Shown piece by piece: positions 14,268 to 20,091 of a stretch of 32,086 nucleotides of DNA. The notes below the pieces were generated by a model. That model did no database searches. It had not been told where the DNA came from and worked only from the letters and a program-made list of their open reading frames with translations. Source of the DNA: Verrucomicrobiota bacterium (lineage in GTDB: Bacteria > Verrucomicrobiota > Verrucomicrobiia > Chthoniobacterales > UBA10450); contig CADDYX010000008.1 of NCBI GenBank assembly GCA_902810735.1, forward strand, positions 1-32,086. Reading direction: 5' to 3'. Every line of letters starts with the position of its first letter. Within the stretch, counting starts at the first letter, position 1. The translations under genes were made by a program, and so were the position numbers.

Positions 14268-14350
14268 GCAAACGTTCAACGTGCAACGTCCAACGTGCAA
14301 TCCTGCTGCGTTCGGCGTTGGACGTTGAGCGTTGAACGTTGGACGTTTGC
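14268..14350. repeat. heptamer (AACGNNC) inverted repeat filling the manA-MFS gap
   Basis: The left arm has four consecutive 7-nt units AACGTTC, AACGTGC, AACGTCC, AACGTGC. The right arm, read on the other strand, has AACGTCC, AACGTTC, AACGCTC, AACGTCC, AACGCC. The two arms can form a long imperfect hairpin with a loop of about 18 nt. The element ends 5 nt before the MFS ATG and begins 13 nt from the manA ATG, so the promoters or the mRNA leaders of both genes must overlap it. Comparable heptamer runs are, as far as I recall, dispersed in verrucomicrobial genomes. Confidence 0.85.
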
Positions 14351-14355
14351 CGCCC

Positions 14356-15789
14356 ATGAACGCCGGCACGTGGATTCAGACGCACATTCCAGCTCGGCTG
14401 GATCGGCTGCCATGGCATCGCTGGCATTGGCTGATCGTGGCGGCGCTGGGCGCGACCTGGATTCTCGACGGTCTTGAAGTCACGCTCGCCGGAGCGGTCG
14501 GCGGAATGCTGACGCGCCACGATACGCTCGCGTTCACTGACGCGCAGGTCGGCGCGACCGCGACTTTTTACCTGATCGGCGCTGTCATTGGTGCGTTGCT
14601 ATTCGGCTATGCGACCGACCGGTTTGGACGCAAGCGTCTCTTTTTTGTGACGGTCACCGTTTATCTGGTCGGCACGGCGCTGACCGCTTTATCGTGGAAT
14701 TTCGCGAGCTATGCGATCTTCCGCGCGATCACTGGCGCAGGGATCGGGGGTGAATACGCGGCGGTGAACTCGGCCATCGACGAGCTGATTCCAGCGCGCG
14801 TTCGCGGGCGGGTGGACTTGACGATCAACGGTTCGTATTGGGTCGGCGCCGCAACCGCGTCCGCCGCAGGAGTCCTCGTGCTCAATCCCGCGCACGTCGC
14901 GCCGTGGCTCGGCTGGCGTCTTGTGTTCCTAATTGGGGCAACGCTGGGACTGATCGTGATCTTCTTTCGCCGCTGGATCCCGGAGAGCCCGCGGTGGCTG
15001 ATGATTCACGGCCGGCCGGAAGCAGCGGAGCAGATTGTTGCCGAGGTGGAAACGATGATCGGCATCGGGTCGGGCGCAACTGAGCTGGTCGACGCCGAGG
15101 CGACACACATCTGCATGCGCAGCCATACCCCTTGGTCGCAGATCTGGAATGCAATCGCACACGAGCATCGCCGTCGCTCAGTACTCGCATTCGTGTTGAT
15201 GATCTCGCAGGCGTTTTTCTACAACGCGATCTTCTTCACCTACGCGCTCGTCCTGATGCGCTTCTACGGTGTGCCGCCGGAGCGCGCCAGCAGCTATCTG
15301 TTGCCATTCGCGATCGGCAACGTTCTCGGACCGCTGTTGATCGGACGACTCTTCGATACGATCGGACGGAAGCCGATGATCGTGGCGACCTACGCGATCT
15401 CGGGAATCCTGCTCGCGCTTACCGGTGCACTGTTTCGCGCGGGGCTGTTGAATGCGCAGACGCAAACGATTGCCTGGACGGCGATCTTCTTCGTTGCTTC
15501 CGCCGCTGCCAGTTCCGCCTATCTCACGGTGAGCGAAATTTTCCCGCTGGAGATTCGCGCTCTCGCCATCGCGATCTTCTACTCGATCGGCACCTTCGCT
15601 GGTGGAGTGTTCGCGCCGCTGCTTTTCGGCGTGCTGATTGGCACCGGCTCGGCGAATGCGCTGTTCATCGGCTATCTCGTGGGCGCTAGCCTGATGATTA
15701 TTGCAGCCGGATTCGAAGCATGGATCGGCGTCGCTGCCGAGCGACGACCGCTCGAAGAAATTGCCGTGCCGCTCTCGAGCCGTCGGTGA
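14356..15789 (+). CDS. MFS transporter, sugar-porter-like
   Basis: A major facilitator superfamily secondary transporter of 477 residues with 12 predicted membrane helices. Seen: the MFS signature DRFGRKR in the loop after helix 2, GAGIGGEYAAVN in helix 4, the sugar-porter-type PESPRWL at the end of helix 6, a central cytoplasmic loop, and GRKPMI in the second half. TM1 contains LDGLEVTLAG with charged Asp and Glu, typical of proton-coupled metabolite:H+ symporters. The substrate is unknown; a sugar or organic acid is likely, and divergence from manA favours a sugar. ATG 14356 is chosen because upstream codons (from 14332) lie in the heptamer repeat. Confidence 0.9.
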   Translation: MNAGTWIQTHIPARLDRLPWHRWHWLIVAALGATWILDGLEVTLAGAVGGMLTRHDTLAFTDAQVGATATFYLIGAVIGALLFGYATDRFGRKRLFFVTVTVYLVGTALTALSWNFASYAIFRAITGAGIGGEYAAVNSAIDELIPARVRGRVDLTINGSYWVGAATASAAGVLVLNPAHVAPWLGWRLVFLIGATLGLIVIFFRRWIPESPRWLMIHGRPEAAEQIVAEVETMIGIGSGATELVDAEATHICMRSHTPWSQIWNAIAHEHRRRSVLAFVLMISQAFFYNAIFFTYALVLMRFYGVPPERASSYLLPFAIGNVLGPLLIGRLFDTIGRKPMIVATYAISGILLALTGALFRAGLLNAQTQTIAWTAIFFVASAAASSAYLTVSEIFPLEIRALAIAIFYSIGTFAGGVFAPLLFGVLIGTGSANALFIGYLVGASLMIIAAGFEAWIGVAAERRPLEEIAVPLSSRR

Positions 15790-15797
15790 ATGCCAGA

Positions 15798-16259
15798 ATG
15801 AAAGGAAATATCTCTCGACTGCTCAGTGCGTGGATGCCCGTTGCGCTTTGGCTGTTGCTGATGTTCATCGGCTCGACCGAGTTGCTGTCGGCGGAACATA
15901 CCTCGCGTTTTCTGACACCGTTTCTCCGCTGGCTCTATCCGGACATTTCTCAACGTGCCATTGCGACCGTCCACTTCGTTGTCCGAAAGGCTGCCCACGT
16001 AACGGAGTACGCGATCCTGACGTCAGTGCTCTGGCGCGCCCTTCGCATTTCGCTCGCCGGCAAATCTCGCGCGCTGATCGCTGCGATTGCGTGCGTCGGC
16101 CCGGCGCTCTTTGCCGCGTCGGACGAGTTCCACCAGTCGTTTATGCCATCGCGAACCGCCTCCCCGAATGACGTGCTGGTTGATTGCGTCGGCGTTTTGC
16201 TCGCTGCCGCGCTTTGCTGGACGGTGACGCGACCGGGCGCGCCGGACCCGAACAGATAG
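15798..16259 (+). CDS. VanZ family membrane protein
   Basis: A small membrane protein of 153 residues with four hydrophobic segments. VanZ-family features: HFVVRKAAHVTEYAIL and the conserved SDEFHQSFMPSR followed by NDVLVDCVGVLLA. VanZ itself gives low-level teicoplanin resistance in enterococci; most family members have no known role. It begins 8 nt after the MFS stop (GTG 15786, overlapping that stop, is an alternative), so it is likely co-transcribed with the MFS gene. Confidence 0.9.
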   Translation: MKGNISRLLSAWMPVALWLLLMFIGSTELLSAEHTSRFLTPFLRWLYPDISQRAIATVHFVVRKAAHVTEYAILTSVLWRALRISLAGKSRALIAAIACVGPALFAASDEFHQSFMPSRTASPNDVLVDCVGVLLAAALCWTVTRPGAPDPNR

Positions 16260-16278: not shown

Positions 16279-17043
16279 ATGCAGCAGCAGTTCGTTGTTC
16301 AACTGCGATTCCACGGCGATCTCGGTTTGTTCGTGCGCCGGCGACGTTCAACCGATCCGGTCATCAGAACGTTCCGCGAGAAAACCTCAATCAAGGACGT
16401 GATCGAGTCGTGCGGTGTTCCGCATCCGGAGGTTGACGGCATTCTCGTCAATCGCCTTTCCGTCGCATTCGCATTCCATCTCACTTCCGATGCGACGGCC
16501 GAAGTGTTTCCATTTCCCGCTCCCGCGAAGATGCTGCGGCTGCAGCGCCGCGGTCTCGCCCGCTTCGTCGCTGATGGACATCTCGGCAAGCTCGTGCGGC
16601 GTCTGCGCCTGCTCGGCATTGATACGTGCTACAACAACATTGTGTCGGACGCGGCATTGGTATCGACCGCGCGCGCCGAGGAGCGAGCGCTGCTCACACG
16701 CGATCGGCGCCTGCTCATGCACGCCGCGGTGCGGGACGGATATTATCCACGCTCGCAGCTCCCGGACGAGCAAGCGGTGGAAGTGATCCAACGATTTGAG
16801 CTGCAAAGCGCGCTGCGCCCGTTCACGCGCTGCCCGACCTGCAACGGCTTGCTTCATCGCGCCGAAAAACAGGATGTGCTCGAGCAGCTGGAGCCCCTCA
16901 CGCGGATATACTACGACGATTTCCGCCGCTGCAGCGATTGCCGGCAAATCTTCTGGCCGGGCTCTCATTTTCCTAAACTGCAGGCGCAACTGCGACGGCT
17001 CGGTGTCCCGGATTGCGATTGCGAACCGAAAGCCGAGCGTTAG
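16279..17043 (+). CDS. Mut7-C ubiquitin-like plus Mut7-C RNase domain protein
   Basis: A cytoplasmic protein of 254 residues. Residues 1-80 match the ubiquitin-like domain found N-terminal to bacterial Mut7-C proteins. Residues 94-240 match the Mut7-C RNase (PIN-like) domain: FVADGHLGKLVRRLRLLGID with Asp99, LLTRDRRLL with Asp142, and a zinc ribbon Cys185/Cys188 plus Cys218/Cys221. Homology to the exoribonuclease Mut-7 C-terminus predicts RNA cleavage, but substrates of the bacterial proteins are not established. The stop is only 14 nt before tRNA-Ile, so the gene and the tRNA are probably on one transcript. It lies 19 nt after the VanZ-like gene. Confidence 0.92.
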   Translation: MQQQFVVQLRFHGDLGLFVRRRRSTDPVIRTFREKTSIKDVIESCGVPHPEVDGILVNRLSVAFAFHLTSDATAEVFPFPAPAKMLRLQRRGLARFVADGHLGKLVRRLRLLGIDTCYNNIVSDAALVSTARAEERALLTRDRRLLMHAAVRDGYYPRSQLPDEQAVEVIQRFELQSALRPFTRCPTCNGLLHRAEKQDVLEQLEPLTRIYYDDFRRCSDCRQIFWPGSHFPKLQAQLRRLGVPDCDCEPKAER

Positions 17044-17057
17044 AGTTGTCGCTCCTC

Positions 17058-17131
17058 GGGCCTGTAGCTCAGCTGGTTAGAGCATGCGCTTGATAAGCGC
17101 AGGGTCAAAGGTTCAAATCCTTTCAGGCCCA
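17058..17131 (+). tRNA. tRNA-Ile (anticodon GAT)
   Basis: A 74-nt cloverleaf. Acceptor stem GGGCCTG/CAGGCCC, D-arm GCTCAGCTGGTTAGAGC, anticodon stem TGCGC/GCGCA with loop TTGATAA (anticodon GAT at 17092-17094), T-arm AAAGG/CCTTT with loop TTCAAAT. The discriminator is A and CCA is not encoded. It lies between protein genes: 14 nt after the Mut7-C gene and 9 nt before the GTG start of an M16 peptidase gene. In most bacteria this tRNA sits in the 16S-23S spacer. Confidence 0.97.
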
Positions 17132-17140
17132 CACCTCTTC

Positions 17141-18523
17141 GTGAAGTTTCCGATCGCTGCGGCTACCCTGTCTCTCTGCGCAATGGCGTACGGCGCCGCG
17201 CCGAAGTCGCCGCCTCCGCCGCAGGTCGTGATTCCGAAGATCGACTTCAAACGTTCAACGCTGCCGAACGGCCTCGAGGTCTACACCGTCGAAGATCACA
17301 AGAGTCCCACGGTTGCGGTGCAGGTCTGGTATCGCGTCGGTTCGAAAGACGATCCGCAGGGCCGCAGCGGCTTCGCGCATTTATTCGAGCACATGATGTT
17401 CAAGGGGAACGCACATCTCTCGCCCGATGCATTTGAGGAGCTCACGGAAAACGTGGGCGGCGAAAACAACGCGTTCACTGCCGATGATATGACCGTTTAC
17501 CACGAAGTGGTGCCATCGAACTATCTGGAGCCGATTCTCTGGGCGGAAGCAGAGCGAATGTCGTCCCTTGCGATCACGGCGGCGAACTTCACCTCCGAGC
17601 GCGATGTCGTGAAGGAGGAATTTCGGCAGCGAATTGCGGCGAACCCGTACGGCGATTTTTATCTTGCGATTCCAAAGCTGTCGTACGCTGTGCATCCGTA
17701 CAAACGCCCGGGCATTGGCAGCATCGAAGAGCTCGACGCGTCGAAGCTCGACGAAGTGCAGGCGTTTCACTCCACCTTTTACCGGCCGGACAACGCCACG
17801 CTGATCGTGGTGGGAGACTTCCAACCGCAACAGCTCAATGATTGGATCAACAAGTACTTCGGCGCGGTCCCGAAACCTCGGACGGAAATTCCACGCGTGA
17901 GTGTGAAAGAACCTGCGCGAAAAGAAGATAGGCGGCAGGTAATTTATAGTCCCAAGGCGCCACTGCCGGCACTCGCGGTGACATATCTGGCGCCATCAGC
18001 GCGGAACGACGACTCGCCCGCGCTTGATGTAGCGGACGATATTCTGTCAGGCGGTGCCTCGTCGCGGTTGTACCAGTCGCTCGTTTATCAGCAGCAACTC
18101 GCGCAATCCGTCTCCTTCAACGCCGACCTGAAACAGGATCTCGGATTACTGACGTTTACTATGACACTGGCCAGCGGCAAAAGCGTAGCGGATGCGGAGA
18201 AGGCGCTCGACGCCGAAATCAGCAAGGTGCTGAAGGACGGCGTCACGAGTGGCGAAGTCGAGAAGGCGAAAAACCGCGCACTCACTGCCAAGTTGTTCAA
18301 CATCGAGACGTCGAACGGCAAAGCGAGCGAACTCGGCGAAGCCGCCGTCGTGCTCGGCGACGCGAACCGCGTGAACACTCAGCTCGAGAAGATCAATGCT
18401 GTCACGCCCGAGCAGGTCAAAGCCGCGTTGAGGAAATATATCAGCGGACAAAAACGCGTCGTAATTGAGTTTCTGCCCGAGTCAATGAAAGCGGACGCGC
18501 CAAAACCGCCGGAGACGAAATGA
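17141..18523 (+). CDS. M16 family zinc metallopeptidase, catalytic subunit type
   Basis: An exported insulinase-family peptidase of 460 residues, expected periplasmic. Seen: a signal peptide (about 1-19), RSTLPNGLEVY, the inverted zinc motif His80-x-x-Glu83-His84 in FAHLFEHMMFKG, the third-ligand region ERDVVKEE near residue 160, and two M16 halves with GGASSRLYQSLV in the second. The frame is open into the tRNA, but GTG 17141 gives a proper signal peptide. It starts 9 nt after the mature tRNA-Ile end, leaving no space for a separate promoter or ordinary ribosome-binding site. The stop overlaps the next gene as ATGA. Together with the next protein it likely forms the usual active/inactive M16 heterodimer. 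Confidence 0.93.
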   Translation: MKFPIAAATLSLCAMAYGAAPKSPPPPQVVIPKIDFKRSTLPNGLEVYTVEDHKSPTVAVQVWYRVGSKDDPQGRSGFAHLFEHMMFKGNAHLSPDAFEELTENVGGENNAFTADDMTVYHEVVPSNYLEPILWAEAERMSSLAITAANFTSERDVVKEEFRQRIAANPYGDFYLAIPKLSYAVHPYKRPGIGSIEELDASKLDEVQAFHSTFYRPDNATLIVVGDFQPQQLNDWINKYFGAVPKPRTEIPRVSVKEPARKEDRRQVIYSPKAPLPALAVTYLAPSARNDDSPALDVADDILSGGASSRLYQSLVYQQQLAQSVSFNADLKQDLGLLTFTMTLASGKSVADAEKALDAEISKVLKDGVTSGEVEKAKNRALTAKLFNIETSNGKASELGEAAVVLGDANRVNTQLEKINAVTPEQVKAALRKYISGQKRVVIEFLPESMKADAPKPPETK

Positions 18524-19968
18524 AAACGCTGCCGACGGCTCTGTGGATTGTTATCGCGAGTGCTTTGCATGCGTACGCGATCGGCGGCATCGACAAAGCG
18601 CCAGCACCTTCCGCTCCGCGCCAGACGAACTTCATCAAACCGAAAGAGACGGCTCTACCAAATGGCCTCCGCGTGATTGTAGCGGAGCGTCCGGACCTTC
18701 CCTTGTTAGCCGCGCAAATGGTCATCCGCAACGGCTCGGAAGTAGATCCGGACGGTCGAGCAGGGACCGCGACGATGACCGGATCGTTGCTGACCAAAGG
18801 CACTGAGAAAATGTCAGCGCCTGAAATCGCCGGAGCGGTCGAATCGTTAGGCGGCGCAATCGGTTCCTCAGCGGGTTGGGATGCGTCCAGCGCGTTTGTA
18901 GTCGTTATGTCAAACAAGGCGGACGCCGCGCTGGCCATTTTATCAGACGTTGTGCTGCATCCGGGTTTCAAACCGGAGGAAATTGACCGCCTGAAAAAGC
19001 AGACGCTCGACCGGCTGCGCGTCGGTCTCGAACAACCGGGAGTGCTGACCAGCTACGTCGGCACGCGCGTTGTATTCCCGAACGGCGAATACGCGCACCC
19101 AAGTGGAGGCACGATTCAAACCGTCCAGGAAATCACGCGCGACGACATTGTCGCGCTTCATCGGACGTTCTACCGGCCAGACAATGCGGTTTTCATTTTG
19201 TCTGGGAACGTGACGCTGGAGCAGGGGAAGGCGTACGCAGAGAAGTTCTTCGGCAGCTGGAAGGCGGAAGGACCTCTCGCGGCACGAAATCACTCAGGAG
19301 AAGTGAAGGATTGGAAGCCGCAAAATATCGTCGTCGACATGCCACAGGCCGGCCAGGCTTCCGTGATGGTTGACCAGCCGACGATCAGGCGCGATTCGCC
19401 GGACTACTACACCGCGCAGGTGGCAAACGCGGCGCTCGGCAACGGCTTTGCCTCGCGGCTGAATCGCGAAATTCGCATCCGGCGCGGCCTCAGTTACGGC
19501 GCGAGAAGCGCGCTCGACGCGCGGCGTGACGCCGGCGTTTTCACCGCCAGTGCACAGACGAAGAACGAGTCCGCGGCAGAGGTCGCGAAGCTGCTCCAAG
19601 CGGAACTGAAGCGGCTCGGGGACGAACCGGTGCAAGGCGACGAGTTGAAGTCACGCCAGGCATTGCTGACCGGCGGCTACGCCCGCGCGATGGAGACGAA
19701 CCTCGGAGTCGCCGGTGAAATTTCCTCGCTGGCGGTGCACAATCTCCCGCTCGACACGTTGGAGAAGTATATTCCTGCAATCAACGCCGTCGGAAGCGAG
19801 GCGATCACCACGTTCGCAAAAACTCACTTCGCGTCGCCAAGCGCGATCGTAATCGCGGGGCAGGCGGCAGCGTTTGTCGACGCGCTCAAGCGACAAGTGC
19901 CGGACGTGAAGGTGATCCCGAAAAACGAGCTTGACCTGAACCGGCCGGAGCTCGTCCGAGCAAAGTAG
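18520..19968 (+). CDS. M16 family peptidase-like protein, non-catalytic partner
   Basis: A second exported M16 protein (482 residues, signal peptide about 1-20). It aligns without gaps to its neighbour around the zinc site, but the HLFEH position reads TMTGS, so it cannot bind zinc there. Its second half keeps the substrate-binding Arg...Tyr pattern in RRGLSYGARS, which is not seen in the catalytic partner. This complementary loss is typical of bacterial M16B pairs that work as a heterodimer, like the mitochondrial processing peptidase alpha and beta subunits. The start overlaps the upstream stop (ATGA), giving near-equal translation. It is convergent with tRNA-Ala 50 nt away. Confidence 0.93.
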   Translation: MKTLPTALWIVIASALHAYAIGGIDKAPAPSAPRQTNFIKPKETALPNGLRVIVAERPDLPLLAAQMVIRNGSEVDPDGRAGTATMTGSLLTKGTEKMSAPEIAGAVESLGGAIGSSAGWDASSAFVVVMSNKADAALAILSDVVLHPGFKPEEIDRLKKQTLDRLRVGLEQPGVLTSYVGTRVVFPNGEYAHPSGGTIQTVQEITRDDIVALHRTFYRPDNAVFILSGNVTLEQGKAYAEKFFGSWKAEGPLAARNHSGEVKDWKPQNIVVDMPQAGQASVMVDQPTIRRDSPDYYTAQVANAALGNGFASRLNREIRIRRGLSYGARSALDARRDAGVFTASAQTKNESAAEVAKLLQAELKRLGDEPVQGDELKSRQALLTGGYARAMETNLGVAGEISSLAVHNLPLDTLEKYIPAINAVGSEAITTFAKTHFASPSAIVIAGQAAAFVDALKRQVPDVKVIPKNELDLNRPELVRAK

Positions 19969-20018: not shown

Positions 20019-20091
20019 TGGAGGCAAGGGGATTCGAACCCCTGACTTCCAGCTTGCAAAGCTGGCGCTCTACCAACTGAGCTATGCCCCC
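20019..20091 (-). tRNA. tRNA-Ala (anticodon TGC)
   Basis: A 73-nt cloverleaf on the minus strand. Acceptor GGGGGCA/TGCCTCC (one G-U pair), D-arm GCTCAGTTGGTAGAGC, anticodon stem CCAGC/GCTGG with loop TTTGCAA (anticodon TGC, plus-strand 20056-20058), T-arm AGGGG/CCCCT with loop TTCGAAT. The discriminator is A and CCA is not encoded. It follows the 16S gene on the same strand, 252 nt away, but beyond an intrinsic terminator. What follows it is a convergent protein gene, not 23S rRNA. A promoter of its own in the 44 nt between terminator and tRNA could not be identified with confidence. Confidence 0.97.

Follow-up and report, generated by a model that had tools for sequence, protein, structure and literature searches.

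A tRNA-Ile gene set 9 nt before an M16 peptidase gene in a Verrucomicrobiota genome: a probable lineage-specific juxtaposition with loss of the peptidase promoter

Introduction

In the 32,086-nucleotide stretch of DNA analysed here (hereafter the window; contig C8 of a 3.0 Mb soil Chthoniobacterales MAG made of 310 contigs with 4.33% contamination), a tRNA-Ile gene lies among protein genes of the same strand and ends 9 nt before the GTG codon of an M16 peptidase gene. Such a layout raises the question of how the peptidase mRNA acquires its 5' end. The original prediction was that excision of the tRNA from a common transcript yields a leaderless peptidase mRNA, and that peptidase output could thus depend on tRNA maturation. 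These proposals were assessed by analysis of the junction, of the other tRNA genes of the same genome and of the orthologous loci of its nearest relatives, which are Chthoniobacterales / Spartobacteria MAGs.

Results

Organization of the locus

The following features were assigned in the window, the evidence being given in brackets.

14332..15789, + strand: MFS/sugar transporter gene, first of the run (ORF; Pfam PF00083/PF07690)
15798..16259, + strand: VanZ-like gene, ATG at 15798, 8 nt past the MFS stop (ORF; Pfam PF04892)
16279..17043, + strand: Mut7-C RNase-domain gene with a Ub-Mut7C domain (ORF; Pfam)
17019..17046, + strand: candidate sigma70-type promoter of tRNA-Ile, TTGCGA-16-TAGAGT (sequence; -10 enrichment before the tRNAs of the genome)
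17058..17131, + strand: tRNA-Ile(GAT), without encoded CCA (ARAGORN; Rfam tRNA model)
17132..17140, + strand: 9-nt spacer from tRNA to GTG, CACCTCTTC, the leader if the M16a mRNA is tRNA-processed (sequence; tRNA end)
17141..18523, + strand: M16a peptidase gene, GTG start, signal peptide, HLFEH (HxxEH) motif (Pfam PF00675/PF05193; orthologs)
18520..19968, + strand: M16b partner peptidase gene, ATGA overlap with M16a (ORF; Pfam)
20019..20091, - strand: tRNA-Ala(TGC), convergent with M16b (ARAGORN)

The genes from MFS to M16b thus form a one-strand run in which the successive gaps are 8, 19, 14, 9 and -4 nt. The M16a reading frame is intact and the pair carries the M16 N and C Pfam domains, as expected of an M16 metallopeptidase pair; no HxxEH motif was found in M16b at the place equivalent to the HLFEH of M16a. 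M16b adjoins M16a in nearly all orthologous loci, and a VanZ-like gene is found upstream of tRNA-Ile/M16a in many relatives as well. The neighbourhood tRNA-Ile / M16a-M16b / tRNA-Ala also recurs in relatives, and these two tRNA genes are here located outside an rRNA operon.

The junction between tRNA-Ile and M16a

Both ARAGORN and the Rfam tRNA model call tRNA-Ile(GAT) on the + strand at 17058-17131/17132. Its discriminator A is position 17131 and is followed by CAC (17132-17134), hence the CCA end is not encoded. The Mut7-C stop codon ends at 17043, 14 nt before the tRNA, and the GTG at 17141 follows the mature tRNA end after 9 nt, so that the predicted spacings are borne out by the tRNA calls, the open reading frames and the Pfam assignments. 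A single gene for an Ile-GAT tRNA was found in the assembly, the tRNA-Ile region giving one full match. The need of the signal peptide for the GTG was likewise confirmed: with the next in-frame start downstream, ATG 17183, most of the signal peptide would be lost. Upstream, the nearest in-frame start, ATG 17084, is within the tRNA and was rejected, the conserved orthologous start being the GTG beside the signal peptide.

No Shine-Dalgarno motif was found before the GTG, in agreement with the predicted absence of an ordinary ribosome-binding site, yet none of the 24 M16a orthologs possesses such a motif either, and this absence was therefore discarded as an unusual trait of the window. Between the tRNA-Ile start and the GTG, no -10-like box (TANNNT) was detected; the sole one in the 100 nt before the GTG is TAGAGT, 94 nt away. 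Nor was a + strand terminator found between tRNA-Ile and M16a. Being on the same strand with neither a promoter-like box nor a terminator between them, the two genes have the layout of a tRNA-mRNA co-transcript.

A promoter-like site for tRNA-Ile and the packing of tRNA genes

Room for a promoter is lacking, as stated, in front of M16a, but not in front of tRNA-Ile. The sequence TTGCGA-16-TAGAGT (17019-17046) matches 8/12 consensus bases, its -10 overlapping the Mut7-C stop codon and ending 11 nt before the tRNA. A consensus promoter scan at 9/12 bases gave no match, this site being below the threshold. In the genome, a TANNNT ending 7-16 nt before the tRNA is present for 12/44 tRNAs versus 0-4 (mean 1.6) in the control windows, which were eleven windows of the same width further upstream. 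Because TAGAGT occupies the position at which TANNNT is enriched, tRNA-Ile likely has its own promoter overlapping the Mut7-C stop, and consequently would not have to be excised from the transcript of an operon. The view that no promoter is possible for tRNA-Ile was abandoned on account of this box.

The stretches around all 44 tRNAs of the genome were surveyed with a crude gene call based on codon usage. In about 8/44 cases, several of them with an uncertain start, a candidate CDS start on the same strand was present at most 20 nt after the tRNA, with gaps of -1 nt (Val-CAC), 8 (Ile, from the ARAGORN end), 14 (Asn), 14 (Leu-TAA), 15 (Pro-TGG), 18 (Lys), 19 (Phe) and 20 (Met). Close tRNA-to-CDS packing is, by this count with its several uncertain starts, a general trait of the genome, so that the tightness of the Ile/M16a gap is not exceptional. 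A fixed tight spacing was also sought for three other tRNA-CDS pairs of the genome (GNAT, FMN reductase and tRNA-Pro/secreted protein), and none keeps one: FMN reductase is found 29-115 nt from tRNA-Leu in relatives where this tRNA is nearby, and the tRNA-Pro/secreted protein spacing varies among relatives.

The GNAT acetyltransferase gene (L129 1501-1997, on contig C134 of the same genome) is an extreme case, since the A of its ATG is the discriminator base of tRNA-Val(CAC). Maturation of the tRNA-Val 3' end would cut this start codon, and no other start looked plausible for GNAT. Among 19 related loci, GNAT is preceded by a tRNA only in L174, where a tRNA-Arg lies 43 nt upstream. Several GNAT orthologs of the family have a -10-like box just before the start codon; since boxes similar to those of M16a are seen there, promoters set directly at the start codon are probably frequent in the clade.

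Position of tRNA-Ile in related genomes

Close orthologs of M16a (66-72% identity) were found in 23 other genomes of the family, with a partial copy in a 24th. Conservation of the 9-nt spacing, a check proposed with the original prediction, was examined in the 23 genomes, and both distance and strand were found to vary. In 4/23 (L004, L005, L008, L011), the tRNA-Ile gene precedes M16a by about 57-85 nt on the same strand; it is co-directional at 340-1350 nt in five (L007, L013, L014, L015, L121) and on the opposite strand in seven (L006, L009, L010, L114, L115, L116, L118). In the remaining 7/23, no tRNA-Ile was found near M16a in the DNA examined, partly since contigs end. The 9-nt junction is in none of the 23 and belongs to the window's genome only, which rules out a conserved spacing. 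A conserved co-directional operon including Mut7-C was rejected as well: Mut7-C adjoins tRNA-Ile in few relatives, and in L034 it is downstream of M16b.

The orientation of tRNA-Ile switches within well-supported groups of the M16a tree. L008 (+) is sister to L115 (-), and L006 (-) falls in a group with + genomes. Despite their opposite tRNA-Ile orientations, L008 and L115 have nearly identical M16a promoter and start regions.

Other observations concern the tRNA genes themselves. In closely related genomes, tRNA-Ile occurs in either orientation at one locus (L008 1332-1405, L115 1258-1331), and the same is true of tRNA-Pro (L216, L226-L228), a pattern that repeated in-place inversion of single tRNA genes would produce. 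In L214 and L218, tRNA-Pro is located about 290-340 nt upstream and a repeat of its 3' end (CACCCCGACCA) stands directly ahead of the downstream gene, an arrangement resembling a short insertion at the 3' end of the tRNA. Finally, the T-stem of tRNA-Ile is of the AAAGG/CCTTT type in L003, L005, L011 and L115 versus the CTGG/CCAG type in L004, L006, L008, L009 and L010. The alternation of the two types among closely related genomes suggests compensatory change or gene conversion.

A leaderless-type start of M16a in the family

A TANNNT box is present 8-12 nt before the M16a start in 19/24 orthologs (one outside the family), the script having counted 18/24 and L116 being added after re-anchoring from a wrong GTG. 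The 18/24 obtained by script compares with 1.4 in shuffles and 0-4 in windows of the same width further upstream; the orthologs are related, so that the 19/24 are not independent and represent about four distinct upstream sequences. In most of genus g7 the box is TACGGT, 10-12 nt ahead of GTGAAA; in g10 it is TATGGT, 10-12 nt ahead of the GTG; much of g4 has TAAGGT at 9 nt, and L114 and L116 have TACGTT or TACTTT at 9 nt. All these boxes are putative, TANNNT being a generic consensus. With a close -10-like box in 19/24 and a Shine-Dalgarno motif in 0/24, the orthologs have the features of leaderless-type genes. As the -10 is so near the start codon, M16a would ordinarily be a leaderless-type gene in the family, with its own promoter and a leader of at most about 6 nt. 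The window's M16a departs from this type: the -10 of the relatives is absent, and the acceptor stem of the tRNA stands at that place.

Maturation of the tRNA 3' end

The 3' end of a tRNA without encoded CCA is normally matured by RNase Z. No protein of the window's genome reaches the cut-off of the canonical RNase Z model (TIGR02651, cut-off 293), the best scores being 41 bits in the genome search and 74 bits for a whole 438-aa protein. The low-scoring matches are metallo-beta-lactamase-fold proteins, and the 438-aa one also carries a response-regulator domain. Similarly, no protein of 29 relatives is at the cut-off (best 107 bits), and the RNase BN model also gave no match at its cut-off. Weak TIGR02651 scores were also obtained for some control genomes (e.g. 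Caulobacter, Thermus, Corynebacterium), so that a divergent enzyme is possible. As no protein is at the RNase Z cut-off, an endonucleolytic 3' cut that would give the mRNA a definite 5' end cannot be taken for granted; were the trailer removed by 3'-5' exonucleases instead, the downstream mRNA would need a separate cut. As a more general observation, most tRNAs of the window's genome have no encoded CCA, yet no protein is at the canonical RNase Z cut-off in the sampled Chthoniobacterales.

Discussion

The reading that we favour, and regard as probable from the comparison of sequences, is that a local rearrangement removed the M16a promoter and that M16a now rides on the tRNA transcript, in a lineage-specific juxtaposition. 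In the family state, M16a would be read from its own promoter, with a -10 box 9-12 nt ahead of the conserved GTG and a leaderless or near-leaderless mRNA; tRNA-Ile, under a promoter of its own, would form an independent unit in about the same location, free to change orientation and distance. A small deletion or rearrangement, deduced from one genome, may then have set the tRNA 3' end 9 nt from the GTG and taken away the -10. Transcripts of M16a and M16b would most likely arise by read-through that begins at the tRNA promoter, which overlaps the Mut7-C stop, with a possible contribution of the Mut7-C operon. Maturation of the tRNA would leave a 9-nt leader, and a lineage poor in Shine-Dalgarno motifs can probably translate such an mRNA. 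A processed 5' end followed by so short a leader would be possible because M16a was already used to near-leaderless mRNAs. If M16a does depend on tRNA maturation, this would be a side effect of the layout, as opposed to a conserved means of regulation.

A hidden, non-consensus promoter in the tRNA gene could also drive M16a independently of tRNA processing and give a short-leader primary transcript like those of the orthologs. This would suit a leaderless-type family whose members have their own promoter, and the T arm (GGTTCAAATCCTTT), about 17-30 nt before the GTG, is AT-richer. We hold it to be rather unlikely, since no TANNNT occurs from the tRNA start to the GTG and the same T-arm sequence is found in relatives that keep a separate -10 (L005, L011). 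Much less credible still is the loss of 50-100 nt between tRNA-Ile and M16a by collapse or omission during assembly. The MAG is fragmented and contaminated to the extent given above, and the spacer is longer in every relative that has a tRNA nearby; against this, the reading frames, the tRNA and the promoter-like sites are intact on both sides, the flanks are unique sequence and other tight tRNA-CDS junctions exist in the genome. As the putative deletion is known from one genome, an assembly error keeps this small share of probability.

A selected switch, in which excision of tRNA-Ile from a common transcript is the sole source of the peptidase mRNA and the peptidase level is regulated via tRNA processing, would account for the same-strand gene run and for the 9-nt junction devoid of a ribosome-binding site and of a -10. 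It is nevertheless highly improbable: relatives differ in the spacing, the strand and even the upstream presence of tRNA-Ile and have a separate promoter for M16a, tRNA-Ile has its own promoter-like site and no protein is at the canonical RNase Z cut-off. The outcome observed in close relatives, a variable spacing together with separate promoters, is one that had been named beforehand as speaking against the original prediction. A conserved regulatory coupling of tRNA-Ile and M16a is thus refuted by the comparison of the loci, and with it the idea of a peptidase output tied to tRNA maturation as a kept coupling. The proposed excision to a leaderless peptidase mRNA fares better: co-transcription and a short-leader mRNA are plausible in this genome, since there is no -10 in between, no ribosome-binding site and the gene family is of leaderless type, the weak point being the RNase Z cut. 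In other words, the junction as a conserved regulatory switch does not hold, and the layout would be an accident of one genome. If the M16 pair is expressed only via the tRNA transcript, a leaderless-tolerant lineage can lose a promoter beside a tRNA and keep expression, and the level of a secreted peptidase would be linked to an essential tRNA.

The locus can be compared with known systems. As in the tRNA punctuation model of mitochondrial RNA processing (Ojala et al. 1981, as cited in PMC8003010), tRNA-Ile directly abuts M16a and its excision would leave a very short 5' UTR. In contrast with that genome-wide plan, M16a is one junction in one bacterial genome, where processing is only predicted and the tRNA has its own promoter-like site; the relatives do not keep the arrangement, their spacing and strand being variable and a promoter-like box standing beside the start. 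Co-transcripts of a tRNA and an mRNA include secG-leuU of E. coli (Mohanty and Kushner 2008, as cited in PMC3985628) and, in archaea, the tRNA-Lys in the 5' UTR of TK0306 of T. kodakarensis (PMC4247193). The locus would resemble them in having a tRNA and a protein gene on a shared transcript from which the tRNA is freed by processing; it differs in that the co-transcription is deduced and that the M16a CDS begins only 9 nt past the tRNA, without a ribosome-binding site. The M16a orthologs, with a -10-like box before the GTG and no Shine-Dalgarno motif, recall the leaderless genes of mycobacteria, in which GTG is an effective leaderless start (PMC4633059), and the Verrucomicrobia, listed among bacteria in which this motif is scarce (PMC10783764). 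Unlike those genes, the window's M16a has lost its -10, and either tRNA processing or upstream transcription would provide its 5' end. More speculatively, and with rather low probability, tRNA 3' maturation could replace lost promoters in leaderless-rich soil Verrucomicrobia, arising repeatedly as relocating tRNA genes land before leaderless genes. With tRNA-Ile/M16a and tRNA-Val/GNAT (the shared base) as its cases, both from one genome, such a promoter-replacing maturation would be a bacterial counterpart of mitochondrial tRNA punctuation.
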